A DNA stretch of 64,000 nt. Origin: Fredinandcohnia onubensis. Lineage in GTDB: Bacteria > Bacillota > Bacilli > Bacillales > Bacillaceae_L. Each line of letters begins with the position of its first letter. The first letter of the stretch is position 1. The stretch is from assembly GCF_031181385.1 (NCBI RefSeq), contig NZ_JAPSKV010000002.1, positions 248,001-312,000 of the forward strand, read 5' to 3'. Both the position numbers and the translations under genes were made by a program. The notes beneath the pieces were generated by a model that was not told the DNA's origin, did not search any database, and saw only the letters and a list, made by a program, of their open reading frames with translations. This document shows, in pieces, positions 21,483-55,459 of this stretch.

Positions 21483-22445
21483 TCATACATCTTTCACACA
21501 GCGAAAGCCGAGGTTTCCGGTTGAACTATCTGGTGTATTCGAACTTCTTGCGGCAACCCGGTAACGATTACAGTATGAGTGGTGACAAAGATATGATCCA
21601 CCTCGCATTACTTTTGTTTCGCCAAAAGGTGGTCCCACCGGATTATCTTGTTTATCAGACACATGGAAATTTGGACTAAACCAATTTGCGCACCATTCCC
21701 ATACATTCCCTACAATATTATATAACCCATAACCGTTTGGTGGAAATGCTGAAACAGGTGCAGTTGATAAATAGCCATCTAATTTTGTATTTACATGTGG
21801 AAAATTACCTTGCCATATATTACAAAGGTAATCACCGTTTGGGTTTAATTCATCTCCCCACGGATAAATTTTTTGCTCTAAACCTCCTCTTGCTGCGAAT
21901 TCCCACTCTGCTTCAGTAGGAAGCCGCTTCCCAGCCCATTCGCAATATTTCATAGCATCATTCCATGAAATATGAATAACTGGGTGGTCCATTCGACTGT
22001 CAATTGAGGAATCTGCCCCTTCAGGCTTTTTCCAATAGGCCCCTTCTACAACCCACCACCACGGTGTCGATGCAACCTGATTTTTAACGGTCTTCGATAC
22101 TTCTTTCGATACTAACTGATAGAAAACAAATGACCAACCGAATACTTCTGCTTCTGTTTTATATCCAGTATCATTCACAAATTCTGCAAACTGTGCATTG
22201 GTAACAGCATAAGTATCCATATAAAATGGATTCACTTTTACCTTACGAACTGGCCCTTCTCCATCTGCAGGAAATCCTTCTTTCAGATCGGTTCCCATTA
22301 AAAATTCTCCACCTGGGATGTAGACCATTCCATCGAACGATGAATGGTTTTTCGCCTTTTTCATAGTATTTAACGAAGCTTCTGTCTCCCGTGTTTCAAC
22401 TGCTGTTCGACTAACTGAACAACAAGACCTTACTTCTTTGCTCAT
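21483..22445 (-). CDS. Formylglycine-generating enzyme (aerobic sulfatase activator)
   Basis: The 320-residue product belongs to the SUMF1/FGE family. It has FLMGTDLKEGFPADGEGP near the N-terminus, LPTEAEWEFAARGG in the middle, NVWEWCANW, and the catalytic region GGSYLCHHSYCNRYRVAAR with the two cysteines at about 287 and 292 that define true oxygen- and copper-dependent FGE. It oxidises the Cys of CxPxR in sulfatases to formylglycine. No signal peptide is present; an unusual CCS pair lies near residue 8. The start ATG has AAGGGG upstream. A terminator separates it from the upstream sulfatase gene. It complements the radical-SAM maturase at 29178. Confidence 0.93.
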   Translation of the reverse strand: MSKEVRSCCSVSRTAVETRETEASLNTMKKAKNHSSFDGMVYIPGGEFLMGTDLKEGFPADGEGPVRKVKVNPFYMDTYAVTNAQFAEFVNDTGYKTEAEVFGWSFVFYQLVSKEVSKTVKNQVASTPWWWVVEGAYWKKPEGADSSIDSRMDHPVIHISWNDAMKYCEWAGKRLPTEAEWEFAARGGLEQKIYPWGDELNPNGDYLCNIWQGNFPHVNTKLDGYLSTAPVSAFPPNGYGLYNIVGNVWEWCANWFSPNFHVSDKQDNPVGPPFGETKVMRGGSYLCHHSYCNRYRVAARSSNTPDSSTGNLGFRCVKDV

Positions 22446-22552
22446 GCTGTCACGCCCCTTCTTTATTACAATTCGTTATTTTATAATTATTACCTGCAGG
22501 ATTATAAAATGTAACCTCTAAACACTCACTCATATTGGAGGTAGATTACATC

Positions 22553-22598
22553 AAAAAAGGCAATCAGCAAGGTATTATTAAGACCCTTGCTAACTACC
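22553..22598 (-). terminator. Terminator of the ssu-like/TCS/sulfatase operon
   Basis: On the minus strand a 14-bp stem (with G-U pairs) formed by GGTAGTTAGCAAGG and CCTTGCTGATTGCC is followed by six U residues. It lies 15 bases after the sulfatase stop and separates the FGE gene. Confidence 0.85.
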
Positions 22599-22612
22599 AT
22601 CAAACTTAACAA

Positions 22613-24010
22613 TTACTCATAATCTCTAACCTCGGCTTTTAGGCGATATAATTCCTTCTTCAAAAGTTGAATTGTCTCTGCATAATTAGGGTCATGATAT
22701 ACATTATTCATTTCATAAGGATCCTTCTCCAGATTAAATAACTCCCACTCTGGTGTTCTCTGTTCGTCTATCGCATCTGCATTACCTAAAGCTTCTCCAT
22801 AATAATAAATTAATTTATATTTATGGGTCCGCATACCATAATGAGCTCCAACTTTATGCTCCACACTTAGATGTTCCCAATAGCGATAATACATGGAAGT
22901 TTGCCAATCTTCCGGTCTTTTTCCCTCTAAGACTGGACGTAAACTTCTTCCTTGCATATGGCTAGGAATTTCTAAACCTGCATAATCAAGAAAAGTTTCC
23001 GGAAAATCTACATTAAGTGCAAAATCTTTTGTCACTGAACCAGCCTTAATTGCACGTGGATAACGAATAATGAATGGCATTCTTAGGGATTCCTCATACA
23101 TAAATCGTTTATCGTACCAGCCATGATCACCTAAGAAAAAGCCTTGATCAGACGTATACACTATTATCGTGTCTTCCGTTAACCCTGTTTCATCCAAGTA
23201 ATCTAGGATTCGACCAACATTATCATCAACAGACGCCACACAACGTAAATAATCTTTTATATAGCGTTGATAATACCAACTTTTTAATTCTTTTTGAGAA
23301 AGTCCTTCTGGCGGCTCAGCCTTTACATCACGAACACGAAGATCTCTATCAATTCTCATGGTTGCCTCTTTTGCAGCTGAAGCTTTCCCAGAGTAATCAT
23401 CATGAAAAGTTTCTGGTTCAGGAATTTCTACATCTTCGTATAAATTAGCATGTTTTTCGTCTGGGTCCCAGGGGCGATGTGGTGCTTTATGATGGCACAT
23501 AAGCATAAATGGTCTGTTTTCATCCCTATTTTTCATCCAATCAATGGATATATCTGTAACTAAATCAGTGGCATAGCCCTTCACCTTTTTTTCTTCTCCC
23601 ATTTCAATCATAACAGGATCATGATAATCTCCTTGGCCAGGGAAGATGTTCCAATAATCAAAATCTGCAGGATCATGATGCCCCCCATGACCAAGATGCC
23701 ACTTACCAATAAGTGCAGTTTGATAGCCATTTTCTCCTAGAATCCTTTGAATCGTCGGTTGACGGCTATCAAAATTATCACCAAGCGTCTTTACACCATT
23801 TTCGTGATTATAAAGGCCAGTCAGAATAGTAGCGCGGCTAGGTGCACAGATTGAATTTGTACAAAAGCAGTTATCAAAACGCATCCCTTCTTCTGCAATT
23901 CTGTCTAAATTTGGTGTTGTGTTAATTTTACTTCCATAACAGCTCATTGCATGTGCAGCGTGGTCATCACTCATGATGAAAACAATATTTGGTTGTTTAT
24001 TATTTTCCAT
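22613..24010 (-). CDS. Cytoplasmic Cys-type sulfatase S1 (GlcNAc-6-sulfatase-like)
   Basis: The product has about 465 residues with the activation motif CAPSR at Cys55, metal ligands SDDH near 14-17 and SDQGFFLGDHG near 300. The first residues are NIVFIMSDD with no signal peptide, so it should act in the cytoplasm. The C-terminal pattern YYRYWEH and MRTHKYKLIYYYG reminds me of N-acetylglucosamine-6-sulfatases, but substrate is not proven. I chose ATG at 24010, since GGGGG lies 8-9 bases upstream; an ATG three codons earlier is too close to it. It is the last gene after the ssu-like transporter and a two-component system. Confidence 0.88.
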   Translation of the reverse strand: MENNKQPNIVFIMSDDHAAHAMSCYGSKINTTPNLDRIAEEGMRFDNCFCTNSICAPSRATILTGLYNHENGVKTLGDNFDSRQPTIQRILGENGYQTALIGKWHLGHGGHHDPADFDYWNIFPGQGDYHDPVMIEMGEEKKVKGYATDLVTDISIDWMKNRDENRPFMLMCHHKAPHRPWDPDEKHANLYEDVEIPEPETFHDDYSGKASAAKEATMRIDRDLRVRDVKAEPPEGLSQKELKSWYYQRYIKDYLRCVASVDDNVGRILDYLDETGLTEDTIIVYTSDQGFFLGDHGWYDKRFMYEESLRMPFIIRYPRAIKAGSVTKDFALNVDFPETFLDYAGLEIPSHMQGRSLRPVLEGKRPEDWQTSMYYRYWEHLSVEHKVGAHYGMRTHKYKLIYYYGEALGNADAIDEQRTPEWELFNLEKDPYEMNNVYHDPNYAETIQLLKKELYRLKAEVRDYE

Positions 24011-24034
24011 TTGATACATCCCCCTAGATGATAA

Positions 24035-24709
24035 TTAAAATAAATGTGATAGATTCAAATCATTTATTTTTTTAACAATCTCTTTAGTTCTTGAAACTCC
24101 CAATTTTTTTAGTAATTTATTAATTTGAGATTTTATAGTTACAATCTCTACTCCTCGTTCTCTAGCAATTTCCCGTACTTTCATACGCTTCAAAAGGAAT
24201 CCGATTAATTCTCTTTCCGTGGCCGTTAGATTTGATATATTATTAATAAAAAAAAGTAAGCTTTTTTCTGATTGTTGTAACCTTATATACTCGTTCATAA
24301 TAACTTCTTGGATCTTACTATCCATTAGTGATTGTCCTTTATAGGCGCTGCGAATATGATTTAAAATTTCACTTTCGTCCGTTCCTTTTACAATATAATC
24401 AATTGCCCCAGTCCCCATTGCCGTAAGGATCATATCCTTTGTTTCATGTGCTGTCAGATAAATAATTTTTTCTTCTTTATTTAAATCTCTAATTATTTCT
24501 GTAGCATAAATTCCAGCTGTAGTATTCTCCATTTCTATATCCATTAAGATAATATCGTGATCTACTTTTTTGGCAAGACTGATAACATCCTGTCCACTAT
24601 TGGCTGTTCCGACTACTGTCATATCCATTTGATTATTAATTAGTTCCGCCATGTCCTCTACCAGAAGCGGAAAATCATCGGCAATTAATATTTTTATCAT
24701 ATCGTTCAT
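24035..24709 (-). CDS. Response regulator, NarL/LuxR type (copy 1)
   Basis: The 224-residue product has a receiver domain (about 4-120) with the acidic pair ADD, phosphoacceptor Asp in IILMDIEME and the conserved Lys in YIVKGTDE. The C-terminal helix-turn-helix (about 160-220, LTATERELIGFLL and VTIKSQINKLLKKLGV) is of LuxR/NarL type. It is the partner of the kinase gene just upstream (15 bases) and is followed by sulfatase S1. The pair resembles the one at 53247-55459 in receiver motifs, size and gene order. Control of sulfatase or transport genes is inferred. Confidence 0.9.
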   Translation of the reverse strand: MNDMIKILIADDFPLLVEDMAELINNQMDMTVVGTANSGQDVISLAKKVDHDIILMDIEMENTTAGIYATEIIRDLNKEEKIIYLTAHETKDMILTAMGTGAIDYIVKGTDESEILNHIRSAYKGQSLMDSKIQEVIMNEYIRLQQSEKSLLFFINNISNLTATERELIGFLLKRMKVREIARERGVEIVTIKSQINKLLKKLGVSRTKEIVKKINDLNLSHLF

Positions 24710-24723
24710 TTAGCATCACTTCT

Positions 24724-26217
24724 TTAACCCTTATATTTAGGCAATAATATATAAAAAGTACTTCCTTTATTTACTTCACTCTCAAATCTGATACTTCCGA
24801 AATGTTCCTTCACTATCATTCGTACATAATGCAATCCCATACCCCAATTAGAATTGGAATTCTTTTTGGAATAGTACGGTTCAAAAATTTTCTTGGCTTC
24901 ATCCTTACTAATACCAATTCCGTTATCCTTTACTTCAATTACTGTATATTGTCTAGAGTCATAACAATGTAGAGTGATTCTACCATTCTCATGTAAAGTT
25001 ACTGCTTCTTGAGCGTTAATCAAAAGGTTATATACAGCTTCACTTAGGTGTACTTTATCAGCCAAGACATGACTAGTAGTTGAAAATTCAAACACCACTT
25101 TAATGTCCGGAAATTTTTGATAGAACCTTTCAAGAGAGCTTTTAAGCACTACATGAATATCTACTGGTACCAAATGCACAACATTTGATTTTACAGCTCT
25201 ATAAAGCTCTTCAATTCTTGTTAGAATATTCTCATTCTGCTTTGACAACGATTCAGTCAATTCCTTTAACTTTTCTATATCAACATCAACATCAACACCA
25301 ACATTATTACCTTCCATTATTGATTTAAGCCTTTTAAATAAAACACGATTGGAAAGCAATTGATTTTTGATACTATGTACAAAGACCGAAGTTCCTGTAC
25401 TAATAGCGTCAAATTTTCTTTGGATGGTTATTTCCTCTCTACTTGATTCAAAAATCTCCCGAGTGTATTTAATTATGCTCGTAAAACCAATAATCCCGAA
25501 GATAACATTCAATACAATTAGTAAGATATAAGCAGGTACGGATAATACATTTTTCAAATAATAGATACCGTTTTCATAAGAATAAAAAGAATATACTTGG
25601 GCTGGATCTTGCCCAAAATAAAGAAAGTAAAAAATACATAACGACATTACAAAGGAGGTAATCAAGATAAATTTCTTTTTGAAAAATCTTATCACAATCG
25701 AGTGTGCTTCATAGAATAATAGAAATGTTGAAAATGTGATAAATAAAACTATCCAAAACACTGTTCCGTAAGTGATTATACGCTGTAAGTTCTCATTCAA
25801 ATTTGTAATGAACAAAAAGATAGTTGGATAATATAAAATTAAGGTGAAGATTGGGATAAAAACTATCACTCTTTTTATCCAGTAATTCCTTTGAAACATG
25901 GGTATCATTGAGTAGTGTAAGGAGAGCAATACCAAAAACATAGGAAAAAGGTACCTCCCTATAGCAATGATATATCCCATTTGGCCAAGCGTAATGACAA
26001 AGTATTGGATACTTGTTTTTATATTATTATTAAAATATAGAAAGTCTTGTAGTTCCCTACTAATTCCACCTTTTTTAGCTATGTATAGTAAAATACCGGA
26101 TAACATTATGGCTAAACTGATACACATACCAAAAATGTAGAAGGATTCCTTATTTCGTTTTACGAGTAAGACCATAATCGATGAAATAATGAGAAAAATC
26201 ATAAGTATAATGAGCAT
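24724..26217 (-). CDS. Membrane histidine kinase (copy 1)
   Basis: The 497-residue product has an N-terminal half with about six to seven membrane helices (residues 1-240) and no large extracellular domain. The cytoplasmic part has an H-box reading FVHSIKNQLL (His near 281), an N-box NLLINAQEAV, and G-boxes DNGIGI and NWGMGLHY. The HSIKN box differs from the common HExxxP type. The start ATG has AAGGTG upstream. It follows the substrate-binding protein gene, so kinase and transporter may sense together. A paralogue with the same box lies at 53247. Confidence 0.9.
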   Translation of the reverse strand: MLIILMIFLIISSIMVLLVKRNKESFYIFGMCISLAIMLSGILLYIAKKGGISRELQDFLYFNNNIKTSIQYFVITLGQMGYIIAIGRYLFPMFLVLLSLHYSMIPMFQRNYWIKRVIVFIPIFTLILYYPTIFLFITNLNENLQRIITYGTVFWIVLFITFSTFLLFYEAHSIVIRFFKKKFILITSFVMSLCIFYFLYFGQDPAQVYSFYSYENGIYYLKNVLSVPAYILLIVLNVIFGIIGFTSIIKYTREIFESSREEITIQRKFDAISTGTSVFVHSIKNQLLSNRVLFKRLKSIMEGNNVGVDVDVDIEKLKELTESLSKQNENILTRIEELYRAVKSNVVHLVPVDIHVVLKSSLERFYQKFPDIKVVFEFSTTSHVLADKVHLSEAVYNLLINAQEAVTLHENGRITLHCYDSRQYTVIEVKDNGIGISKDEAKKIFEPYYSKKNSNSNWGMGLHYVRMIVKEHFGSIRFESEVNKGSTFYILLPKYKG

Positions 26218-26312: not shown

Positions 26313-27344
26313 CTATTTAGCAGCATTTAGCATATTTTCAAATAAAACATATTCTTTTACCGGTCTCATTTCTGCATCAGTTAATCTGCCTGCCTCGATA
26401 AAGTTTTCCTGTTGTTTTTGATAATATGCCTCCAGGGTTCCATCATTAATTCTATTAATAAGCTCTTCAGAAGTAATCCACTCACCGTCACCCGTTTGTT
26501 CAACTACAGAAGCTGGATCTACCGCTATTTCCTCTGCTACCCAATCCGCAACTTCCTCTAAGTGGTCAACTCGATAATCCATTGCCTTCATCAAGCCTCT
26601 TGTAAAGCCTTCCAAAGCCTCACCATTTTCATCAGCATAACCTGGTGTAATAACCCATGAAGCAATTGAAGGAAATTGATCTGCATATCTAGCGTTATTG
26701 GATAACATAACTACTTTGTCTCCCATTTCATTCTTAATGGCATTCGTATTAGGGGACCATGTAGCTACAGCATCAACACTTCCTGAAATCATAGCCGTCA
26801 CTATTGCAGATGCATCCATGTTCATTAACTTCACGTCTTCCTTTGTTAAACCAGCTTCAGCTAACGTTAAGTCTAAAATTGTTTCACTTGAGGTCCCTGT
26901 TGCTACAGCGATTGTTTTACCCTTTAAATCCTTAATCGAACTAACGCCTTTTTCAACATTTCCAATTACCTCATCAGCATTTCCTAACTGTGAAAAAGCA
27001 AAGATTTCTGCTTCGCCTTGAATAGGAAGAACGTGCGCACCTGGCCCAATATAACCAATATCAATACTACCTGATTCTAAAGCAGCGATTATTGTTGGAC
27101 CATCAGCAAATTCAACAAGTTCAACTTCAATACCTTCTTCTTCAAAACTACCAATTCTCATTCCTGCTACTACAGTATTTAGACTTGCGTAGTTTGGCAT
27201 ATACCCAACCTTCATAGTCGTCAAACTTTCGTTATTACTTGGACTTTTTCCCTCTTCCTTTCCTTTAGAAGCCTCATCACTAGAACAACCTATTACTAAA
27301 AATGCGATTAGTGTAAACATAATTAAACCAAGAAGCTTTTTCAT
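26313..27344 (-). CDS. ABC substrate-binding lipoprotein, sulfonate/nitrate/taurine type
   Basis: The 343-residue product has a lipoprotein signal (LVIGCSS, Cys at about 20) and an acidic Ser/Lys linker. The mature domain matches the NMT1/SsuA family (VGYMPNYASLNTVVAGMRIG, ALESGSIDIGYIGPGAHV, VATGTSSETILDLTLAEAGL). Family members bind alkanesulfonates, taurine, nitrate or thiamine precursors; the ligand here is unknown. RBS AAGGGGG is strong. It follows its ATPase and permease genes. A role in importing a sulfonate or sulfate ester that sulfatase S1 would process is inferred from the operon only. Confidence 0.85.
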   Translation of the reverse strand: MKKLLGLIMFTLIAFLVIGCSSDEASKGKEEGKSPSNNESLTTMKVGYMPNYASLNTVVAGMRIGSFEEEGIEVELVEFADGPTIIAALESGSIDIGYIGPGAHVLPIQGEAEIFAFSQLGNADEVIGNVEKGVSSIKDLKGKTIAVATGTSSETILDLTLAEAGLTKEDVKLMNMDASAIVTAMISGSVDAVATWSPNTNAIKNEMGDKVVMLSNNARYADQFPSIASWVITPGYADENGEALEGFTRGLMKAMDYRVDHLEEVADWVAEEIAVDPASVVEQTGDGEWITSEELINRINDGTLEAYYQKQQENFIEAGRLTDAEMRPVKEYVLFENMLNAAK

Positions 27345-27398: not shown

Positions 27399-28190
27399 TT
27401 ATTTTCTAACTTCTAAATATTCTTTATAAACTTGGCTCCAAATATAATTTTTTGCATCCAAGAACTCTTTCGAAATCTTTGTTTCTTGATTTCTAGGATA
27501 CGGGATATTAATATCAACAATTTCTTTTATTCTCCCAGGTCTTGCACTCATAATGACTACTTTTTGACCTAAAATAATGGCTTCATCGACATCATGGGTG
27601 ATAAAAAAGCATGTCTTTTGCTCCTTTTCCCAAGTGTGTAGTAATTCCTCTTGAAGCTGGGTTCTCGTTTGTGCATCAAGCGCTCCAAATGGTTCATCCA
27701 TTAATAGTACGGAAGGATTAGCTGCATATGCCCTTGCTATTGCAACCCGTTGCTTCATGCCACCAGATAACTCTTTAGGATAATGGTCAACGAAGTCTTC
27801 TAAATCAACCATTTTTATATATTTTAATGCAAGTTCTTCTGCTTCTTTTTTCTTAATCCCTTGTAACTTAAGTCCAAATTCAACATTTCCTTTTACGGTT
27901 AGCCATGGAAATAAAGCGTACTGTTGAAAAACAACTCCTCTTTCAGTACCGGTTCCTGTTATTTCTTTATTATCACAATACACGGTTCCTGATGTAGGTT
28001 TCTCTAAACCTGCGATTATATTTAACAAAGTAGATTTACCACAACCAGATGGACCAACAACTGTGATGAATTCGTTTTCCTTTATATCTAGATTTATTCC
28101 ATTTAGAGCAATGACTTCACCGTTGCGGGAATTATACGCTTTCATTACGTTATCTATTTTGACTTTTATAGGTCTCTCTTTTCCTGCCAT
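27399..28190 (-). CDS. ABC transporter ATPase, SsuB/TauB type
   Basis: The 263-residue product has a Walker A GPSGCGKST, Q-loop VVFQQYALFPWL, signature LSGGMKQRVAIARA, Walker B VLLMDEPFGALD and His switch FFITHDVDEA. The FPWL after the Q-loop is typical of nitrate/sulfonate/taurine transporters. It overlaps the permease gene by 25 bases and has AGGAG upstream of its ATG. It energises the neighbouring permease; it is not of the MsmX type needed by the two CUT1 systems in the island. Confidence 0.93.
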   Translation of the reverse strand: MAGKERPIKVKIDNVMKAYNSRNGEVIALNGINLDIKENEFITVVGPSGCGKSTLLNIIAGLEKPTSGTVYCDNKEITGTGTERGVVFQQYALFPWLTVKGNVEFGLKLQGIKKKEAEELALKYIKMVDLEDFVDHYPKELSGGMKQRVAIARAYAANPSVLLMDEPFGALDAQTRTQLQEELLHTWEKEQKTCFFITHDVDEAIILGQKVVIMSARPGRIKEIVDINIPYPRNQETKISKEFLDAKNYIWSQVYKEYLEVRK

Positions 28191-31464: not shown

Positions 31465-31494
31465 GAATAAACACACCTCTATTTTCATTTATTC

Positions 31495-33618: not shown

Positions 33619-33643
33619 TGTCATTCTTCCTTTACCTTACATC

Positions 33644-34792: not shown

Positions 34793-34818
34793 AAATACAT
34801 CTCCTTCTATATTCATTG

Positions 34819-40366: not shown

Positions 40367-40381
40367 TTTTTTCCCCCCTTA

Positions 40382-41260: not shown

Positions 41261-41280
41261 CCTAAGGACCTCCTTATGTA

Positions 41281-41307: not shown

Positions 41308-41320
41308 ATATTACTAGTTT

Positions 41321-42781: not shown

Positions 42782-42819
42782 ATGATACCATCGTCGGATT
42801 GTTGGGTCAACCCTAACAA
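42782..42819 (-). promoter_or_regulatory. Promoter of transporter operon with inverted-repeat operator
   Basis: On the minus strand TTGACC (42810-42805) and TATCAT (42787-42782) are 17 bases apart. The -35 box lies inside an interrupted palindrome, TTGTTAGGGT then TG then ACCCAACAA (42819-42799). The right arm ACCCAACAATC recurs at the GalNAc operon promoter. A repressor bound here would block the -35 box. The remaining leader to 42614 holds only AT-rich sequence with a small CAAAAT palindrome. Confidence 0.7.
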
Positions 42820-46264: not shown

Positions 46265-46336
46265 ATAACTCACTCTCCATCATGTGTTTTTCCATTTATT
46301 TGTCTAGTTTTGAACTATATTATATTTCTTATCTTC

Positions 46337-46381: not shown

Positions 46382-49300
46382 TTAATACTTATATTGTTCG
46401 GGAATAAGTTTTAGTTTTGCATTAAAACTAGCACCTTTTGCATCTTGAACATTGACCTTTAATTTAATAGAAGGTTTTGTATTCACTACTTCAACGTTCT
46501 CATCTGCTTCTATTACAGAAAAGGCTTTACCATCAATATCAATTTCGATATAACCATCGTTTTCCATAGTTGGATCAGAGACTGCAATTTCGAGAATCCC
46601 GTCTTTTGCCTGCATTGTGATGGATGCTTGTTGATAAACAGTTAAAGGTCCAACTGTCTGCTTTTCATTAACCCAAAAATTCGCCCCAATGATATGTTGT
46701 TTTTCTTCATAAACCCCCTGAACGGAATCATCATTTCTTAAGACTCTAATATCTGGGTTAGTAGCATATTGTTTTACTTGTTCTTGAGTCTTATTTGGAA
46801 GAAGGACATAAGAATACATATCTTGCTTTGGCGCTAAACCATGTTCAATCCACATGGTTGCATACGACCTGCTAACCGAATCTGTTGGTTCTGTATAATT
46901 AATGTCATACCATGATCCAGTTCTTTCTTCCTTTTTCACGATAATTTGTTCTTTGTTAGGGAAGTAATAACCGATATCGGCACCTTTAACATTTCCTTCA
47001 AGAAATGCCCAATCTGCAATAACCGAATTTTCTGCCCCATCCTGGATTTCCCCGTTAATAATCAACTGGTTTGAACCGTCATCTCTAATTTTTCGATTCT
47101 CAACAATTGTTTCAATGTTTCTCGTTTCATCACTTGATATTCCAGTTCCTAGTGCAACAATTTCATCATCAAACATAAACCATGATTTTTTCGCAACCAA
47201 TGTACTATTCCATGCATCATAAGACATACCAGCGCTACCATACGTGTTTAATGTAGAACCTCCCACCCATGATTGTGTGGAATTATGTTCACCGCTGCCG
47301 TCAGCTCTTTGCATGGTGTCTATAGTTGTTCCAGGCATGCGATACGGATCAACTGTTGGCCAATAATCTTCACTGTATTGGGCTAAGTCGCCATTATACA
47401 AATAGGTCATTCCTTCTCCTGTATACCAACCTTTTCTATTTTCGTTATTCATATCTTCATAGTTTTGTACGCGACTTGAGTACATGCTTATTCCAAATGC
47501 ATAACCTGGTTTTCTATGAATGACCCGATCCATATTTGCATAGGTTACATGAAGATCAAGTTCTCCTCTTGATATGACAGATGGATCATCCATTAATTCT
47601 TTTGCAAGTTTATAATCCTTGAAGTTACTAGTGTTTTTAAAGTAATCAAAGTACTTATTCTCTTCAATCCAGAACTTTGCCATTGCTTTATATTGTGTCG
47701 CATATGGTTCCGGAGCAAATTCTGCCATCCGTATAACAGTCTTAATGATCGTTTGTCCTGCTTGATGGTCTTGTAAGAAGGATCTGGAAATTGCTCTTCC
47801 TCTTACCATATCCATTAAGGCACCTTTGTACATAAGGGGTTCATAGGATTTACCCACCCATTCGTACACATTCTCTACATTAGAGTCAGTGACTTTCCAT
47901 GTGGAATCACTTAATAGCTCTAACATATCAGTTAGCCCTTCTAAGAGGACATTACCGTAAGAGCCTGTATATGCAACATCCTCGTGCTGAATAAATGATC
48001 CATCCTCATAAAAACCATCTCCGTGAGTAACGTTTAGGAAAGTCTGACTTAATGCATCCCGTGCAGCAGCAATTCTCTGACTATCCTTTACTATAACGCC
48101 ACGTACAGCAACGACTTTACTTACATCAATACGGTTTGCACCAACCGCTTCCCTGTAATTATTAGGTGTTGTAGCTCCAGATTTGGTCGGATCAGGCTGA
48201 AAATGATCTACTACAGCTAAGTAACGATGAACCGTTTCCAAATCTAAAGAATCGTATAGTAGTACCATCAAATCATTTAATTCCTTTGGAACTCCAATTT
48301 CCCAATGCCACCAATTACTCCATTGACTAATATTTTCGTTATAATGATTTTCATAGAGCCATTCTAATCCGGAAGCTATATCCTTAAACAATGCTGGATT
48401 TTGATATAATGTCGAATGTTCATTTGCATATGCTTTCGCCATTGTTGTTAAATTACGATAACTATCTCGAATATGAGAGGAATTATCAAAAGCAGAATAC
48501 TCAATCCATAAAAAGGATCTTTCCTCATTTTTGTTCATTTTTTTCCATAATTGTTCCGCTCTTTTGGTTTGATTTTGAATAACTTCTTTCATACGTTCAT
48601 TGGCTGGATCATAATATTCTAGTGCAGTTAGGGAACTTTCCCACCTTTTCCTGAGCTCGTCATATTCATCCATTACTGCCTCGGTAACTGTAATGGTCGT
48701 TTCACTTTCTAAAGCACGATCATCAGTCTTCACCTTAACAATAGCTGTACCGGCACCGATAGCTTCCACTACTCCATCTTTAACTTTTACGACATCTTGA
48801 TTGGAGGATGACCAAATGAGAGTGTCGGTAACCGCATCTTGTGGCTCATGAGCTACTTCCAATACTCTAACTTGCCCAGTTGTTAATGATAGTTCAGTAG
48901 ATTCTAAACCTATTTCTTCTAATGCTGGCCTTGTTATTTCCTCATTACGGCTTACTTTCACCGTAGCAGTATCGTATAAACCATTATCTGCATAAGCGAT
49001 AATCGTAGTTTCCCCTACGCCAACCGCTTGCACTTTCCCATTTTCTACAGTTACAACCTCTTCATCCATAGACATCCAAGAAATTGTCGAGCTGGTATTA
49101 GAAGGCTTGACCGTTAAATTTAGTTCCATACTTTCCTGTTCTACTAATGCGATTTCTTCTTCCTCTATAGAAATCTCTTGTGCAGGGCTAATATGCTCTA
49201 CCGCTACATTGTCAAACATCGCAGTTCCTGTTCCTGTTTCAAAGAAAAGCTGTACTCGAATACTATCGACGTTCTCAACCAGATGTATATCCTTTTCGAT

Positions 49301-49759
49301 TTTTGTCCAGTCATGGGTTCCTGTGAATCGTTCCGAATAAATTAACTCCAATTGTTGACTCCCTTGATAGGTGGTTATTCGCATCCTAGCACCCTGACCA
49401 CTAACGATGTTATCGGTCTTCACCCAACTGCTTACTCGGTAGTGGTCCCCTCCTGTAACAGGAATATCCTGATTAACAGAAGTTCGTGCAGTTTCTTCAG
49501 CTTTAATCAGTAGTCCATAGTTGCCTTCCATGCTCGCTTCTTCTGAGATTGAAACAATAGGATTCCCAGTAGGTACCCATACATTCCAGTTGGCTGCTCC
49601 TAAGTCATCCCAAGCCCCGCTAGCTTCTACAGTGTCTTCAAACCCAGGGTTTAATAAATTAGCATTATTGGCATTCGCAAAAAAATGATTTACTGTAAGA
49701 CTAGTTAATACTAAGAGGCAAATAATAGTTAGTATTCCTATTCTTCTCATAAAATTCAC
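46382..49759 (-). CDS. Secreted PL8 family polysaccharide lyase with CBM and Big_2 domains
   Basis: The 1125-residue product has a signal peptide (about 1-30), a carbohydrate-binding beta-sandwich (about 35-195), two bacterial Ig-like Big_2 domains (about 200-275 and 285-365), and a PL8 catalytic alpha-domain and beta-domain (about 370-1115). Active-site motifs include NWWHWEIGVPKELND (Asn near 485) and FIQHEDVAYTGSYG (His and Tyr near 590-600). PL8 enzymes cleave hyaluronan, chondroitin or xanthan by beta-elimination. Context favours chondroitin or dermatan sulfate. There is no LPXTG anchor at the C-terminus, so it is released or held only by its CBM. It is the only exported enzyme of the island. 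Confidence 0.92.
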   Translation of the reverse strand: MNFMRRIGILTIICLLVLTSLTVNHFFANANNANLLNPGFEDTVEASGAWDDLGAANWNVWVPTGNPIVSISEEASMEGNYGLLIKAEETARTSVNQDIPVTGGDHYRVSSWVKTDNIVSGQGARMRITTYQGSQQLELIYSERFTGTHDWTKIEKDIHLVENVDSIRVQLFFETGTGTAMFDNVAVEHISPAQEISIEEEEIALVEQESMELNLTVKPSNTSSTISWMSMDEEVVTVENGKVQAVGVGETTIIAYADNGLYDTATVKVSRNEEITRPALEEIGLESTELSLTTGQVRVLEVAHEPQDAVTDTLIWSSSNQDVVKVKDGVVEAIGAGTAIVKVKTDDRALESETTITVTEAVMDEYDELRKRWESSLTALEYYDPANERMKEVIQNQTKRAEQLWKKMNKNEERSFLWIEYSAFDNSSHIRDSYRNLTTMAKAYANEHSTLYQNPALFKDIASGLEWLYENHYNENISQWSNWWHWEIGVPKELNDLMVLLYDSLDLETVHRYLAVVDHFQPDPTKSGATTPNNYREAVGANRIDVSKVVAVRGVIVKDSQRIAAARDALSQTFLNVTHGDGFYEDGSFIQHEDVAYTGSYGNVLLEGLTDMLELLSDSTWKVTDSNVENVYEWVGKSYEPLMYKGALMDMVRGRAISRSFLQDHQAGQTIIKTVIRMAEFAPEPYATQYKAMAKFWIEENKYFDYFKNTSNFKDYKLAKELMDDPSVISRGELDLHVTYANMDRVIHRKPGYAFGISMYSSRVQNYEDMNNENRKGWYTGEGMTYLYNGDLAQYSEDYWPTVDPYRMPGTTIDTMQRADGSGEHNSTQSWVGGSTLNTYGSAGMSYDAWNSTLVAKKSWFMFDDEIVALGTGISSDETRNIETIVENRKIRDDGSNQLIINGEIQDGAENSVIADWAFLEGNVKGADIGYYFPNKEQIIVKKEERTGSWYDINYTEPTDSVSRSYATMWIEHGLAPKQDMYSYVLLPNKTQEQVKQYATNPDIRVLRNDDSVQGVYEEKQHIIGANFWVNEKQTVGPLTVYQQASITMQAKDGILEIAVSDPTMENDGYIEIDIDGKAFSVIEADENVEVVNTKPSIKLKVNVQDAKGASFNAKLKLIPEQYKY

Positions 49760-49865: not shown

Positions 49866-50747
49866 TTAACCTTTAATCCCTGATGATGCGATTCCTTTAA
49901 CGAAATGGTCTTGTGCTAAGAAAAAGACAATAATTGTAGGGATTATTGCAGATACTGCAGCTCCCATTAACAAGGCATATTCAGTGTTATATTCAGTAAT
50001 AAAATGCTGGATCCCTAATTGGATTGTATATAGATGATCCGATGTTAGATAAATCAAAGGTCCAAGGAAGTCATTCCATGTATGCATAAAAGAAAAGATA
50101 ACCAGTGATGCAATTGCTGGTTTTGAAAGTGGCAGAATGATCTTCAAGTAAATTCCAAATTCATTTAATCCGTCAATTCTTGCGGCCTCTAGTAATTCAT
50201 CTGGGACTGATAAGAAAAATTGACGGAATAAGAATACTCCAAACGGATTAAAAGCTCCTAGTAAGATAAGTGATAAATGGTTATTAACAAGTCCTAGTTC
50301 ACTCATCAACATAAATTGCGGAATCATCATTACTTGATAAGGGATCATCATGGTCGCAATATAAAGGAAAAATAATTTATCTCGTTCTGGGAATTTCACT
50401 TTGGCAAATGCATATCCTGCCATCGAACTTGTTATCACGTTGAGAATGACAGTGATAACTGTTATTTTCAATGTATTCAAATAGTAAATATGAAATGGAA
50501 CCCTGGTCCACACTTCTACATAATTACTCCAGTAAAACGTTTCTGGTATCCACTGAATTGGGATTCCAAATATTTCAGATTCTGCTTTAAATGATGAAGA
50601 AAGCATCCAAATAAAAGGAATGACCATTAATAGTGACAAGCCAATAACAAATAAATATTTTACGAATGTACTAAATTTAATCTTCTGTATTGGTTTTCTT
50701 TGATTTCTCTTCGATTCTACCTTTTTTGAATTCGTCACTAATTCCAC
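49866..50747 (-). CDS. CUT1 ABC permease, MalG type (system 2)
   Basis: The 293-residue product has six membrane segments and the EAA loop EAARIDGLNEFGIYLKIILP. The start is GTG with GGGGAG about 9 bases upstream. It is preceded by its MalF-type partner and followed by the lyase gene. The N-terminal 25 residues are strongly basic and cytoplasmic. Confidence 0.92.
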   Translation of the reverse strand: MELVTNSKKVESKRNQRKPIQKIKFSTFVKYLFVIGLSLLMVIPFIWMLSSSFKAESEIFGIPIQWIPETFYWSNYVEVWTRVPFHIYYLNTLKITVITVILNVITSSMAGYAFAKVKFPERDKLFFLYIATMMIPYQVMMIPQFMLMSELGLVNNHLSLILLGAFNPFGVFLFRQFFLSVPDELLEAARIDGLNEFGIYLKIILPLSKPAIASLVIFSFMHTWNDFLGPLIYLTSDHLYTIQLGIQHFITEYNTEYALLMGAAVSAIIPTIIVFFLAQDHFVKGIASSGIKG

Positions 50748-50796
50748 GAATCGATTCTCCCCTCTTTGTCTAATATATGGTACGGATTCATCTCTC

Positions 50797-51696
50797 TTAT
50801 GAGTTGAGGGACCTTCTTTGACCTAAATAATTTAAAGTTGTAAAAATAAGGATTAGTAAAAATAGGATATAGGCCATAGCCGAAGCATATCCATATTCAT
50901 ACTCCTTAAATGCTGTGGTATATATATCGTACACAAGCACCTGAGTAGAACGACCCGGTCCTCCACCTGTTAACGCGTATACAAAGTCAAAGACTTTGAA
51001 GGAATTGATAATCGCGATAATAGAAGTAAAGAACATAATAGGTGATAGCATCGGCATTGTAATTTTAAAGAATTTTGAAATGGAGCTCGCACCATCAATA
51101 TCTGCAGCTTCATATACATCTTCTGGAATACCTTGTAAGCCTGCTAAAAATATGATCATGTAGTATCCAACAGAATGCCATATGTACACAATGGATACGG
51201 ATACTAGAGCCCAGTCTGGAGAAGAAAACCATCCTGGTAGATTATCAAACCCAAGGTTTGATAAGAACCCATTAACAGGTCCAGCGGTGGGATTGAATAT
51301 TAATTGCCAAACAGCAGCAACAGCTATGGTTGAAGTTACATACGGTAAAAATACTGCTGTACGGAATACTTTAACTAGTCGCATTCCTTTATTTAGTGCT
51401 ACTGCAATTAAAAGTGATAAGAATAACGTTACTGGTACTGAAATGAGAGTAAACAAGATAGTATTTACCAATGAAATCTTAAAATCCGCATCCTCAAACA
51501 ACCTTAAGTAATTTTCTAACCCTATAAATTCAATTTTTCCAAACCCATTCCACGAAGTAAAACTCATAAAGAAAGACGCGATGACAGGCAGGAAAATAAA
51601 TGCTAGAAAACCTAGAATGTTTGGCAGAAGAAACGAATAACCAATGAGGCGATTTCTCTTCTTTAATGACGTTTGATATTTGCTTTTTTTACTCAT
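50797..51696 (-). CDS. CUT1 ABC permease, MalF type (system 2)
   Basis: The 299-residue product has six membrane segments and the EAA loop EAADIDGASSISKFFKITMP. The ATG has GAAGGGAAG upstream. As in system 1, no ATPase gene accompanies the permeases. It is separated by a hairpin from the binding-protein gene. Confidence 0.92.
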   Translation of the reverse strand: MSKKSKYQTSLKKRNRLIGYSFLLPNILGFLAFIFLPVIASFFMSFTSWNGFGKIEFIGLENYLRLFEDADFKISLVNTILFTLISVPVTLFLSLLIAVALNKGMRLVKVFRTAVFLPYVTSTIAVAAVWQLIFNPTAGPVNGFLSNLGFDNLPGWFSSPDWALVSVSIVYIWHSVGYYMIIFLAGLQGIPEDVYEAADIDGASSISKFFKITMPMLSPIMFFTSIIAIINSFKVFDFVYALTGGGPGRSTQVLVYDIYTTAFKEYEYGYASAMAYILFLLILIFTTLNYLGQRRSLNS

Positions 51697-51722
51697 TGTT
51701 TTTCTTCCCTTCTATGATATGA

Positions 51723-51757
51723 ATGAGCACCGTATTGTAGCTCAATACAGTGCTCAT
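51723..51757 (-). terminator. Intercistronic hairpin after binding-protein gene (system 2)
   Basis: ATGAGCAC then GTATTG pair with CAATAC then GTGCTCAT around a 5-base loop, a near-perfect long stem without U-tract. It is placed exactly as the hairpin in system 1 and should favour binding-protein mRNA. Confidence 0.65.
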
Positions 51758-51789
51758 CTTTACCATGGTTTGATGTCAACAAATATTAC

Positions 51790-53091
51790 CTATTCTGCAT
51801 ACTTACTTGCCCATTCATCTTGAACACGTTTAGCGATATTATTGATAGATTCCTCAACGGTTTGTTCTCCAATTAGCGCAAGTTCGCCTTCTTGTTTAAA
51901 TATTTGTTGTACGACAATGTTTTTCACACCAGGTAACATTGGATACTCTGGATATTCAACTGTTTCTAGGAAAAAGTGTCCATTTTTTGGCTTTAATTCT
52001 CCATCTCCTAGATAGATAGATTTAATATTCTCATCTACATAACCAGTAAGGTATCCATCACCAGCAAATATTTCAGCACCTTGTTTTCCAGTCATATAAC
52101 TTAGGAATTTGAAGGCAGCATCTTTATTTTCAGACTTTGAATTCAGCATTAAGGAAACCGGTAATGCAAGTGTTGTATTTGCTTCTACACCTTCAGGATG
52201 TGGCACAGGAACAACGTCCCAGTCGAAGGTGATTTTTCCTTCTTCTTCAGCTTGTCGAAGCTGAGCAACATGCCAGTCACCAATAATGTTCATTGCTACA
52301 TTTCCTTTTTGGAACGCCGCATTGTAATGAGCTCCAGTAGAAACTTGTTCAGACCAACTCATAATTGAACCGTCTTTTTCCAAATCTATGCGATATTGAA
52401 GAGCATCTGCAAATACACTTAGATCTTTATCAATGATAGACGCTCCAGTTTGTACCCCTTGCATATACCATAGTTGCGGCCAAGGTTGAATAAATGCCCC
52501 ATACGTTTTGTCCGCGCCGTTTCCGCTTGTCATTTTTTTTGCAACCTCACGGAATTCTTCCCACGTCATATCCTCACTTGGGTATTCAACTCCTGCTTGA
52601 TCAAATAAATCTTTGTTGTAAAACATCATATTATTTGATTTACGATAAGGAAGACCTAAAACTCCCTCTTCATACTTCATCGCATCATACATAGAAGCAA
52701 AACCTGCAACATCTAAATCACTTTCTTCAATATAAGAATCAAGTGGTTCTATTATCCCAGTATCCATCATTGTATCGATTTGACCTGCAAATACGTCATA
52801 ACCTATACCACTAGAAAGTTGCATTCTAATTTTTTCGTAGTATTGCTCTTGTGGGAACGTTTCAAACTCTACTTTGATATCTGGATTTTCTTCTTTAAAC
52901 TTTTCGTATGCGCTTTCAAATGTTGGTAAATCAGCTGGAAATACAGCTACTTTTAATGTACTTTCACTTGAATCTTTTTTACTAGAGGAATCACTAGCAG
53001 TATCCCCATCACCAGAGGTTGAATTTCCACCACATGCTGCTAAAACTAAGACAAGAGATAAGAAGATTAGAAAACTATAAACCTTTTTCAA
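51790..53091 (-). CDS. CUT1 sugar-binding lipoprotein (system 2)
   Basis: The 433-residue product has a lipoprotein signal (LVLAACGG, Cys at 20), an acidic Ser/Asp linker and a family 1 binding domain (FETFPQEQYYEKIRMQLSSG, NIIGDWHV). The start is TTG with GGGGG 7 bases upstream. It is first in the unit binding protein-permease-permease-lyase-sulfatase-GH88-YesL and is divergent from kinase copy 2, so it is a likely target of that two-component system. Confidence 0.9.
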   Translation of the reverse strand: MKKVYSFLIFLSLVLVLAACGGNSTSGDGDTASDSSSKKDSSESTLKVAVFPADLPTFESAYEKFKEENPDIKVEFETFPQEQYYEKIRMQLSSGIGYDVFAGQIDTMMDTGIIEPLDSYIEESDLDVAGFASMYDAMKYEEGVLGLPYRKSNNMMFYNKDLFDQAGVEYPSEDMTWEEFREVAKKMTSGNGADKTYGAFIQPWPQLWYMQGVQTGASIIDKDLSVFADALQYRIDLEKDGSIMSWSEQVSTGAHYNAAFQKGNVAMNIIGDWHVAQLRQAEEEGKITFDWDVVPVPHPEGVEANTTLALPVSLMLNSKSENKDAAFKFLSYMTGKQGAEIFAGDGYLTGYVDENIKSIYLGDGELKPKNGHFFLETVEYPEYPMLPGVKNIVVQQIFKQEGELALIGEQTVEESINNIAKRVQDEWASKYAE

Positions 53092-53246
53092 AATATTTCC
53101 CCCTTTTTTTACTTAGATTTTTTTGTATAATTACCTTGTAAAGGCTTACTTTATTGTAACTTTTCAAACTTTTTTGTAAAAGGTGAAAGTTTCATTCCCC
53201 TTCTGCAATACTTTTAAGTAAAATAGTAACTATAGGAGGGTTGGAA

Positions 53247-54746
53247 TTGTTCTTTATTGCAATTTTGTTATTATCCATTTCAATTATGTTAATCTATCGA
53301 AATATTAAAAGTTACTCTACAATATTTCTTTTTGGTTTAACAGTTGGCTATACCCTTTCATTTATTGGATTAGTGCTTTATCTAAGTAAGTTCAATATTT
53401 CCTATGAATTTGTTAATAAATTTTTTAACTTTACACCAGGCTCTTGGAACTCTCTTGTATTGCATAATTTTAATCCTGATTTTCTTCTGCGTATTTTGAA
53501 TTTCGGAACGATTCTTTTCTATTTTTGCTTTCTATTTTTTGCTATTTCCTACACAACCAGTAGAAAAGGCTATCGCAAAATAATACCAATCTATGTCTTG
53601 TTAACTATGATTGCAGTGGTGCAATATTTCTTTTATGACCCAAAGATAAATCTAACTTTACAAGACACTGCAATTAATTATAACTTACAGGGACTATACA
53701 AAGCGTACATACATTATGGTGACCGTATTTTTCTCTATTCGAACATCGGTTATATTGTGATTGGCATCGCCCTATTTATAAGAAACTATTTCTTACATTC
53801 ACACGTTCGATTTATTAAAAGATATACATTATTCAATTTAATTAGTTTAATTCTACTAGCGAGTGTTTTCTTATCTATGTTTTCTTGGGCACCAGATATG
53901 TTGGTAAGAACGACATTTAGCACTCATTATCCTAATTATTTACATCCAGACATTCACAAATTTTTGTTAGAGTTACGGATTTTACCGTTAATTGCTGTTC
54001 TTACTCTAGTATTCATGGCCTATACAGTTTTTAAGTATAATTCAATCGAAAATTATTATAGAAATTTGATTCTTATAACTGATAGAAAAATTGATACCGC
54101 TTCCTTGGGTATACGTGCTTTTACTCATTCCATTAAAAATCATTTAGTTGCGATTCGCTCGGAAGCAGAGTTTTTGAGAGAGCGTGTAGGCGATGATGAT
54201 GAATCTCTGTATAGTTTAGACCTTATCTATGATTCTTGTCAGCAGGCATTTAATAGAGTGGAAGACGCCGGAAATAAACTTAACCAAATAACATTAAATT
54301 TCGAGCCAATTGATTTGCACGTTCCTGTAAAAACAGCTCTCAAAAGAGTTAATTTAAAAAATTCAAACATTTCTTTGAAATACCACGCTGTCAATGACTC
54401 AATTATTGTGCAAGGAGATCTGGAGCATTTACAGGAATCTATCTATAATATTATTAAAAACGCACTGGAGGTTGTTTCTTCAGAAACAGGCATTATTGAA
54501 GTTGAAGTTAAGGAAATTGGAGATTGGGGAGTGATTAAAATAAAAGACAATGGTACTGGTCTACAAACCGATGATTTTAATGAGATTTTCACTCCTTTTT
54601 ATTCAACAAAATCATCCTCAACAAATTGGGGAATCGGACTTTCTTATTGTCATAAAATTGTTACCGGTCATGAGGGTAAAATCGAAATCGATAGTACTCG
54701 AAATAAAGGCACCCAATTTAGTATCTATTTACCGCTTTTTCTTTAA
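53247..54746 (+). CDS. Membrane histidine kinase (copy 2)
   Basis: The product has about 499 residues, with an N-terminal region of about six to seven membrane helices (1-270), the H-box FTHSIKNHLVAI (His near 294), N-box NIIKNALEVV and G-boxes DNGTGL and NWGIGLSY. It shares the HSIKN box and layout with the kinase at 24724. I chose TTG at 53247 because GGAGGG lies 6 bases upstream; the TTG at 53241 is adjacent to it. It is divergent from the second sugar transporter. The signal is unknown. Confidence 0.9.
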   Translation: MFFIAILLLSISIMLIYRNIKSYSTIFLFGLTVGYTLSFIGLVLYLSKFNISYEFVNKFFNFTPGSWNSLVLHNFNPDFLLRILNFGTILFYFCFLFFAISYTTSRKGYRKIIPIYVLLTMIAVVQYFFYDPKINLTLQDTAINYNLQGLYKAYIHYGDRIFLYSNIGYIVIGIALFIRNYFLHSHVRFIKRYTLFNLISLILLASVFLSMFSWAPDMLVRTTFSTHYPNYLHPDIHKFLLELRILPLIAVLTLVFMAYTVFKYNSIENYYRNLILITDRKIDTASLGIRAFTHSIKNHLVAIRSEAEFLRERVGDDDESLYSLDLIYDSCQQAFNRVEDAGNKLNQITLNFEPIDLHVPVKTALKRVNLKNSNISLKYHAVNDSIIVQGDLEHLQESIYNIIKNALEVVSSETGIIEVEVKEIGDWGVIKIKDNGTGLQTDDFNEIFTPFYSTKSSSTNWGIGLSYCHKIVTGHEGKIEIDSTRNKGTQFSIYLPLFL

Positions 54747-54775
54747 CAAAACAACTTCACTCGAAGGAGGTAGCT

Positions 54776-55459
54776 ATGGAAAAAACGCATATTCTTATAG
54801 CAGATGATATTGAAGCCCACCGTAGACGTTTGGAGCGTATTATTTCTACTGAAAACAACTTTGAATTAATGGGTTCTGTTGGAAGTGGTCATGAAGCGGT
54901 CAGCATGTCTTTAGAAAAGAAACCTGATATCATTTTAATGGATATCGAAATGGAAGATTATATGGCAGGTATCAACGCTTCCTCAGAAATAAGTAGCAAA
55001 TTACCAAATACAAAAATTATTATTTTAACTGTACACCAGGATAATAATCTTGTGTTCGCTGCGTTTCAAACTGGAATAGTGGACTACGTTTTAAAGAATG
55101 CGGCGAAAGAGGAAATTATCGAAGCTATTAATTGTGCTATTACAAATACATCTCCAATAAGACCAGTAATTGCAAGCAAAATCCGTGAAGAATTTGCTAG
55201 AATTAAACAACTAGAAGCTAATTTTTCTTCTATCTTTAAAATTATCTCAAACCTTACTCCTTCAGAAATGATAGTCCTAAAATTACTTTGTAATAACTAT
55301 ACTCGGAAAGAGATTGCTAAAGTACGCTGTGTCGAAATAGATACGATCAAAAAACAAGTGAATAGTATATTAAGAAAGTTTGATAAGCGGAATACGAGAG
55401 AAGTTGTAAAATTATTGGTACAACACGAGGTTATAGATATTATCAATAACATGTCTTAA
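54776..55459 (+). CDS. Response regulator, NarL/LuxR type (copy 2)
   Basis: The 227-residue product has a receiver (ADD pair, Asp in IILMDIEMEDYMAGI, Lys in YVLKNAAKE) and a LuxR-type helix-turn-helix (LTPSEMIVLKLLCNN and IDTIKKQVNSILRKF). RBS GAAGGAGG is strong. Gene order kinase-regulator and motifs match copy 1 at 24035. A target in the divergent transporter-lyase operon is inferred. Confidence 0.9.
   Translation: MEKTHILIADDIEAHRRRLERIISTENNFELMGSVGSGHEAVSMSLEKKPDIILMDIEMEDYMAGINASSEISSKLPNTKIIILTVHQDNNLVFAAFQTGIVDYVLKNAAKEEIIEAINCAITNTSPIRPVIASKIREEFARIKQLEANFSSIFKIISNLTPSEMIVLKLLCNNYTRKEIAKVRCVEIDTIKKQVNSILRKFDKRNTREVVKLLVQHEVIDIINNMS

Follow-up and report, generated by a model that had tools for sequence, protein, structure and literature searches.

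The window analysed here is a stretch of 64,000 nucleotides from Fredinandcohnia onubensis, a relative of Bacillus (bases 248001-312000 of contig C29; the genome comprises 4.26 Mb in 39 contigs). Between positions 21483 and 55459 it carries an island of 28 genes which, judged by its gene content, very likely is a Gram-positive island for the utilisation of chondroitin sulfate and hyaluronan. It combines a polysaccharide lyase of family 8 (PL8) with a GH88 hydrolase, four sulfatases, two sulfatase activators, three ABC importers and a pathway for N-acetylgalactosamine (GalNAc). The island is not a chance association of genes, because a homologous island in Bacillus sp. REN16 contains 18 of them as a colinear core at 76-97% identity. 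Degrading enzymes including a polysaccharide lyase, transporters and regulators are clustered as in the definition of a Gram-positive polysaccharide utilisation locus (PMC9067506). The gene identities, their order and conservation, the relatives, the absence of a GH38 mannosidase and the position of the lyase in a tree are direct observations on the sequence.

Gene identities were taken from a listing of open reading frames and from Pfam and NCBIfam profile scans. The initial annotation had described an almost one-stranded locus, and 26 of the 28 genes indeed lie on the minus strand, with intergenic gaps of 108 bases or less in 23 of 27 cases. All gene classes that it named were recovered in the scans, which in addition identified two two-component systems (histidine kinase and response regulator pairs HK1/RR1, 24035-26217, and HK2/RR2, 53241-55459, the latter forming the outer end of the span it had given), an SsuCBA-type importer (26313-28987) and a DUF624 protein (42965-43567). 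No ATPase gene for either of the two CUT1 carbohydrate importers is present among the 28 island genes, to which the search for one was confined. The features are as follows, where S1a to S1d denote the sulfatases, SBP a solute-binding protein, and blocks (a) and (b) the genes that the window holds in addition to the core.

21483..22445, minus: FGE, oxygen-dependent formylglycine generator for sulfatases (PF03781, 299 bits; an 84% homologue closes the REN16 core island)
22613..24019, minus: S1a, Cys-type sulfatase, S1_11-like (6-O type), block (b) (5g2v, 485 bits; CAPSR at 58)
24035..24709, minus: RR1 response regulator, block (b) (PF00072; 36% to RR2)
24724..26217, minus: HK1 membrane histidine kinase, block (b) (PF02518; 27% to HK2 over the full length)
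26313..27344, minus: SsuA/TauA-type solute-binding protein, block (b) (TIGR01728, 157 bits, cut-off 163.5; 6ssy, 65 bits)
27399..28190, minus: SsuB-type ABC ATPase, block (b) (PF00005)
28166..28987, minus: SsuC-type ABC permease, block (b) (PF00528)
29178..30422, minus: anSME, radical-SAM/SPASM sulfatase maturase (TIGR03942, 396 bits, cut-off 349)
30520..31488, minus: LacC-type tagatose-6-phosphate kinase, PfkB family (TIGR01231, 354 bits, cut-off 410; named from best matches)
31562..32437, minus: GatY-type tagatose-bisphosphate aldolase, class II (NF009374, 445 bits, cut-off 383)
32473..33624, minus: N-acetylhexosamine-6-phosphate deacetylase, AgaA/NagA (TIGR00221, 308 bits, cut-off 226)
33644..34816, minus: AgaS-type SIS deaminase/isomerase (TIGR02815, 432 bits, cut-off 529)
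34819..36354, minus: S1b, Cys-type sulfatase, core gene (PF00884/PF16347; best solved relative 174 bits)
36296..37222, minus: ROK sugar kinase, proposed GalNAc kinase (PF00480, 171 bits; specificity inferred from context)
37270..37295, minus: candidate promoter/operator ahead of the ROK operon (26-base motif as at 42782; also ahead of ROK in REN16)
37318..38049, minus: GntR-UTRA regulator (PF00392 and PF07702)
38078..39502, minus: S1c, Cys-type sulfatase, block (a) (PF00884; the island of L. lenta has a homologue at 52%)
39530..42613, minus: CUT1 importer 1, two permeases and SBP1, block (a) (PF00528 twice, PF01547)
42782..42807, minus: candidate promoter/operator ahead of SBP1 (26-base motif in common with 37270)
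42965..43567, minus: DUF624 (MusI-like) membrane protein (PF04854)
43626..44825, minus: GH88 unsaturated glucuronyl hydrolase (S. agalactiae enzyme 435 bits, Bacillus GL1 enzyme 358)
44822..46273, minus: S1d, Cys-type sulfatase, S1_27-like (GalNAc-4-O type) (2qzu, 318 bits; 8di0, 289; 6j66, 280; 6s21, 276)
46382..49759, minus: probable secreted PL8 lyase with CBM_4_9_1 and Big_2 domains (PF08124, 356 bits; PF02278, 277 bits; PF02884; tree)
49866..53091, minus: CUT1 importer 2, two permeases and SBP2, the core importer (PF00528 twice, PF01547; SBP2 homologues 60-92%)
53241..54746, plus: HK2 membrane histidine kinase (PF02518)
54776..55459, plus: RR2 response regulator (PF00072)

The REN16 island, whose coordinates coincide with those of the island in genome G005 of the same genus, begins with RR2 and HK2, which are divergent from the rest, and continues with SBP2, two permeases, PL8, S1d, GH88, DUF624, GntR, ROK, S1b, AgaS, deacetylase, GatY, LacC, anSME and FGE. 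The window island consists of these 18 core genes and ten extra genes in two blocks, of which block (a) (SBP1, two permeases and S1c) lies between DUF624 and GntR, and block (b) (SsuC, SsuB, SsuA, HK1, RR1 and S1a) between anSME and FGE. Block (b) recurs with unchanged gene order in V. halodenitrificans (47-84% identity), where it fills a contig of 6,744 bases and its surroundings lie outside that contig. It is likewise present in genome G496, with a PL8 gene not found in the 20 kb examined there. The core importer with HK2/RR2, S1d and PL8 is also found in Paenibacillus doosanensis and Paenibacillus sp. MSJ-34, and homologues of SBP2 (60-92%) occur in six named genomes. The island type is rare, and S1d at E 1e-60 or better is limited to three of 100 genomes including the window's own (two of nine in its genus).

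The PL8 lyase matches the N-terminal, middle and C-terminal domain models over their cut-offs. The expected catalytic Asn, His and Tyr align with those of the solved enzymes. By eye its N-terminus resembles a signal peptide. Several observations speak for a xanthan lyase, and hence against a glycosaminoglycan substrate. The five best solved relatives are all xanthan lyases (637-669 bits, compared to 448 for the pneumococcal hyaluronate lyase), and Arg313 of the xanthan lyase of strain GL1 is conserved, whereas Tyr315 and Arg612 are replaced; these two residues differ in the Paenibacillus xanthan lyase 6f2p as well. Xanthan utilisation clusters are described as containing a GH38 mannosidase together with PL8 and GH88 (PMC12827396), and two carriers of the island, L. 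lenta (five matches) and V. halodenitrificans (one), possess GH38 genes elsewhere in their genomes; the sites examined (three of five and one of one, respectively) lie off the island contigs. A genome-wide search of the host yielded no match to PF01074, nor was GH38 found in the REN16 genome, while it was found in 35 of the 39 genomes behind 40 of the 78 loci.

The tree of PL8 domains (96 rows, built with a quick method and with support from the Shimodaira-Hasegawa-like approximate likelihood ratio test, SH-aLRT, only) places the window lyase in a group of six rows (SH-aLRT 100), the other five being the lyases of REN16, L. lenta and V. halodenitrificans and a pair of Chengkuizengella copies. 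This group is joined by Paenibacillus doosanensis and P. sp. MSJ-34, which both carry islands with SBP2, and by P. whitsoniae, two clostridial lyases and an Enterococcus lyase, giving twelve rows; that wider grouping, Enterococcus lyase included, is the less favourable part of the result, as it reaches an SH-aLRT of only 94 with long branches in a quick tree. Both solved xanthan lyases fall into a separate clade of 17 rows (SH-aLRT 97), and the window lyase lies outside it. The hydrolase points in the same direction, in that the GH88 protein is closer to the chondroitin-disaccharide hydrolase of S. agalactiae (435 bits) than to its counterpart in GL1, a strain that uses xanthan (358 bits).

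Resemblance to xanthan lyases is also a property of Bacillus lyases with a known specificity. HAase-B of Bacillus sp. A50 (1,106 residues) has a Paenibacillus xanthan lyase as its best match (46% similarity) and shows relative activities of 100 on hyaluronan, 39.0 on chondroitin sulfate A (CS-A), 37.1 on CS-D, 13.5 on CS-C, and 0 on both dermatan sulfate and xanthan gum (PMC3988017). HAaseD of Bacillus CQMU-D (1,136 residues), which was modelled on the xanthan lyase 2e24, is active on hyaluronan, where its activity is highest, and on CS-A, -B and -C (PMC9998204); the two enzymes thus contradict each other on dermatan sulfate (CS-B). When the six published internal peptides of the A50 lyase are matched to the 96 rows of the tree, L. 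lenta, a member of the window clade, comes out best with 39 of 78 residues, followed by seven rows with 33-35, the window with 32 and the two xanthan lyases with 28 and 29. The matching suggests, and only suggests, that the A50 lyase belongs near the window clade. Since the xanthan lyases form a separate clade, the host lacks GH38, and the lyases of A50 and CQMU-D, which are of similar size, act on glycosaminoglycans, the xanthan-lyase interpretation is rejected; use of xanthan or a xanthan-like polymer is extremely unlikely and would in addition leave the GalNAc pathway and the four sulfatases unexplained. Xanthan was the objection that the initial annotation had raised to its own proposal, and the glycosaminoglycan reading withstands it.

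A second PL8 gene is encoded about 96 kb downstream on the minus strand of the same contig (393870-396560; L002:994-3684), where it adjoins a gene for a macro-domain protein. Its product of 896 amino acids, counted from the first ATG, contains Lyase_N (the end part only) and Lyase_catalyt domains (PF09092/PF09093), and matches two NCBIfam lyase models far below their cut-offs. These domains are presumably of the chondroitinase ABC type, and the enzyme might contribute to the use of dermatan sulfate.

The sugar pathway points beyond hyaluronan to chondroitin. A contiguous set of genes (30520-37222) encodes the ROK kinase, S1b, AgaS, the deacetylase, GatY and LacC, and the adjacency of AgaS and the deacetylase (32473-34816) is the published signature of GalNAc use (PMC5583593). 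AgaS (432 vs 529 bits) and LacC (354 vs 410) stay under their NCBIfam cut-offs, which tells against this assignment. It could be argued that hyaluronan is the main target of the island and that the sulfatases and GalNAc genes deal with side substrates, as the Bacillus lyases of similar size prefer hyaluronan (100 vs 39 on CS-A for A50, and the highest activity for CQMU-D). However, neither GalNAc nor sulfate occurs in hyaluronan, and the REN16 core nevertheless includes S1d, S1b and the AgaS route. The AgaS, deacetylase, LacC and GatY route favours chondroitin over hyaluronan alone, and a system aimed mainly at hyaluronan is very unlikely. The uronate branch lies outside the island in a cluster on contig C8, where genes for IclR, Eda, a KdgK-like PfkB protein, KduI and a KduD-like short-chain dehydrogenase are adjacent. 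The KduI protein scores 396 bits with NF002091 (cut-off 250); its KduI/IolB Pfam match could have indicated IolB, an identity that was rejected with 20 bits for the IolB model.

All four island sulfatases have a cysteine at the formylglycine position (CAPSR, CTPSR, CSPAR and CSPHR), and no evident signal peptide was seen in any of them when the N-termini were read by eye. They account for four of the seven PF00884 matches in the genome, the others being two longer proteins on other contigs (680 and 649 amino acids) and one match below cut-off. By comparison, the L. lenta genome has 16 such matches, and that of P. doosanensis has 57, compared to 3-16 in five other genomes searched alongside. 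Both activators anticipated by the initial annotation are present, FGE through PF03781 and anSME with a TIGR03942 score of 396 bits over the cut-off of 349. The nearest solved chains of S1d include a 4-O-endosulfatase of chondroitin and dermatan sulfate (6j66, 280 bits) and an endo-4-O-sulfatase (6s21, 276 bits). S1b has homologues (66-92%) in REN16, V. halodenitrificans and L. lenta, and its closest solved relative reaches just 174 bits.

S1a fits chondroitin less well. Its nearest solved chain is an N-acetylglucosamine-6-sulfatase (5g2v, 485 bits), and the type described for chondroitin in Bacteroides is a GalNAc-6-sulfatase, the split between gluco- and galacto-configured 6-sulfates (S1_11 vs S1_15) being described as absolute (PMC10154612). 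A role of S1a in the use of chondroitin-6-sulfate is doubtful because of this likeness and this split, and the enzyme may act on N-acetylglucosamine-6-sulfate (GlcNAc-6-sulfate) instead. There is a substantial possibility, short of an even chance, that with S1a and block (b) the island also reaches the 6-sulfated GlcNAc of heparan, keratan or mucin-type glycans, apart from chondroitin. In support of this extension, S1a resembles the S1_11 enzymes, block (b) occurs in G496 with no PL8 in the 20 kb examined, and in genome G365 a GH20 hexosaminidase with the surface-type domains Laminin_G_3 and FIVAR follows the block (L155:11351-14452). In G365 SsuCBA-HK1-RR1 are kept at 63-88% and the sulfatase is of another subfamily. 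Against the extension, block (b) sits within the chondroitin island in the window, ahead of FGE.

The cargo of the SsuCBA importer in block (b) is approached through its relatives. SsuA narrowly misses the family model TIGR01728 (157 bits, cut-off 163.5), it matches the taurine-binding protein 6ssy with 65 bits, and the nearest NCBIfam names for two of the SsuCBA subunits, both below cut-off, are SaoA and SaoP. Homologues at E 1e-40 or better were sought in overlapping samples drawn from the order (396 genomes), the class (398) and the phylum (398), with only five first-look candidates scored per genome, and in six genomes behind named loci. The window included, this yielded 16 SsuA copies at 15 loci in 13 genomes (26313-28987, L143, L154, L155-L158, L165-L170 and L177-L179). 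Twelve of the 15 loci, among them the near-copies L166 and L167, encode a Cys-type S1 sulfatase within the gene run of SsuA, and in several a two-component system accompanies the run. The partner sulfatases belong to two subfamilies, S1a-like in three loci and another type in nine; members of the latter mostly start with the stretch DIDSLRPDH and resemble S1a at 24-29%. Among the eleven sulfatase-bearing loci other than the window, FGE is found nearby in four and anSME in three. Distant SsuA paralogues from the genomes of REN16, L. lenta, P. doosanensis and MSJ-34 served as a control; judged from coordinates, and limited in some cases by contig ends, none of these ten has a PF00884 gene nearby.

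The 16 close SsuA sequences cluster together in a tree (97/98), and the window belongs to a subgroup of four (100/100), each of which is accompanied by a sulfatase and a two-component system. Whether a sulfatase is adjacent or not, scored as a label on this tree, requires three changes, compared to a mean of 9.1 when shuffled, and a value as low was obtained in none of 500 shuffles. The association has exceptions which count against a sulfated cargo. In one distant genome of the phylum sample no sulfatase was detected near SsuA in any of three loci with four copies (tblastn with six queries; active-site motif), and these copies fall inside the SsuA clade, so that the idea of a branch invariably beside a sulfatase failed.

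Two explanations of block (b) have to be weighed. It may be an ordinary sulfonate (taurine-like) importer which keeps company with sulfatases only through a shared context of sulfur or animal-tissue nutrition. SsuA does belong to the SsuA/TauA family by sequence, and the three loci without a sulfatase agree with a sulfonate cargo. Nevertheless, no sulfonate monooxygenase is present among the 40 open reading frames of the window that were scanned, SsuA scores just under the family cut-off, and sulfatases of two subfamilies occur in 12 of 15 loci as opposed to none of ten distant paralogues; an ordinary importer of this kind is a real possibility, though less likely than not. We read the SsuCBA branch in Bacilli as an importer that is probably dedicated to a sulfated small molecule. 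More specifically, and with odds likewise below even, this SsuA/TauA branch may have been repurposed for a sulfated sugar or amino sugar such as GlcNAc-6-sulfate or GalNAc-6-sulfate, from which the cytosolic partner sulfatase would free the sugar. On this view the gene run, which in the window has a two-component system of its own and lies in a chondroitin island, would have taken up sulfatases of two subfamilies. In the AtsRBC-AtsA system of Pseudomonas putida an SsuA-like importer is likewise encoded beside an arylsulfatase and scavenges sulfur from aryl sulfates; the window differs from this proteobacterial system in its two-component system and carbohydrate-type sulfatase. Two short genes of the chromate transporter (CHR) family, matched in L165 by PF02417, adjoin FGE and the SsuCBA-sulfatase run in both L158 and L165, and their products might export sulfate released in the cytosol.

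It is proposed that the secreted PL8 lyase cleaves the polymer to unsaturated disaccharides which are still sulfated and would be taken up by CUT1 importer 2 through SBP2, with an ATPase encoded elsewhere. In the cytosol S1d would then strip the 4-O-sulfate, S1b and the other sulfatases would remove further sulfates, with 6-O-desulfation assigned to S1a, and GH88 would release the unsaturated uronate. GalNAc would be converted to triose phosphates by the ROK kinase, the deacetylase, AgaS, LacC and GatY in turn, while the uronate would enter the Kdu/Eda cluster on the other contig. The Cys-type sulfatases would be activated by FGE with oxygen and by anSME without. Block (b), with SsuCBA and HK1/RR1, would supply S1a with a small molecule that bears sulfate, in all likelihood an amino sugar sulfated at position 6. 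The substrates of each transporter and sulfatase in this scheme, as well as the regulation, are inferred, and the cytosolic site of desulfation is deduced from the lack of evident signal peptides as judged by eye.

The operons may be controlled by HK2/RR2 and GntR. A 26-base motif that overlaps promoter-like hexamers is located ahead of ROK and SBP1 in the window, from which two sites the pattern was derived, and ahead of ROK at the homologous position in REN16. Five shuffles of the window gave zero to three matches at up to seven mismatches. The motif is a candidate shared control element, and its binding by GntR is putative only. A GntR-type operator pattern, TGGTNTANACCA, gave five matches with one mismatch, all of which lie within genes, and was dropped.

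Other features of the contig are observations in their own right. The island is flanked in the window by genes for a TauE/SafE-type anion exporter (59527-60447) and a SulP-type permease (8652-10130). Three consecutive c-di-GMP proteins with GGDEF/EAL and PAS, PilZ, receiver and LuxR-type domains are encoded at 1219-7765. A GNAT protein of the contig (L005:15547-15984) matches the NCBIfam aminoglycoside 6'-N-acetyltransferase group with 182 bits (cut-off 140).

The closest described system is the ABC-based route of Streptobacillus moniliformis (Smon0117-0128), described by Oiki et al. 2017 (PMC5430744). Shared features are a PL8 lyase, GH88, a predicted cytosolic sulfatase, the import of sulfated unsaturated disaccharides by an ABC system, and KduI, which in Streptobacillus is part of the cluster. 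In the part of the paper drawn on here, that cluster has a single sulfatase, and its importer is of the aldouronate type and comes with an ATPase. The window has four sulfatases, two CUT1 importers without an ATPase in the island, a clustered GalNAc kinase route, two two-component systems, both maturases and the SsuCBA block. Haloarchaeal islands similarly combine a PL8-type lyase, GH88, a sulfatase and an ABC disaccharide importer; these are archaeal, include GH154, and an AgaS/LacC/GatY route is not mentioned in the part of the paper drawn on here (PMC13260240). The streptococcal hyaluronan locus has a hyaluronate lyase, an unsaturated glucuronyl hydrolase and a regulator, but imports through a phosphotransferase system suited to unsulfated disaccharides (PMC9067506, PMC5430744). 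HAase-B of A50, BniHL of B. niacini and HAaseD of CQMU-D are Bacillus PL8 lyases acting on hyaluronan and chondroitin sulfate; the window lyase is known here from its sequence. Bacteroides thetaiotaomicron has 4-O- and 6-O-sulfatases, GH88 and polysaccharide lyases in its locus for chondroitin and dermatan sulfate, with SusCD uptake and periplasmic desulfation (PMC10154612) in place of the ABC uptake and presumed cytosolic desulfation of the window. The island is a variant of the Streptobacillus and haloarchaeal systems in a Bacillus relative, distinguished by its GalNAc branch, a larger set of sulfatases, the presence of both maturases and the additional blocks with importers.

In the literature searched, mostly outside subscription journals, there is no report of such an island in Bacillus or of an SsuABC-sulfatase block in Bacillota, and according to a 2022 review the glycosaminoglycan loci of gut Firmicutes were all still uncharacterised (PMC9067506). 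The initial annotation had called the combination little described, which is fair for Bacillus within the literature searched, but ABC import of such sulfated disaccharides with a predicted cytosolic sulfatase and GH88 has been published for Streptobacillus (PMC5430744). The handling of sulfated glycosaminoglycans by Gram-positive bacteria is poorly characterised, and with this island a relative of Bacillus offers an almost complete candidate. REN16 with the core only and the window with the core and two importer-sulfatase blocks form a pair which permits a block-by-block comparison. If it is true that the SsuCBA branch carries sulfated sugars, some of the 'taurine/sulfonate' annotations of transporters encoded beside sulfatases would be wrong.

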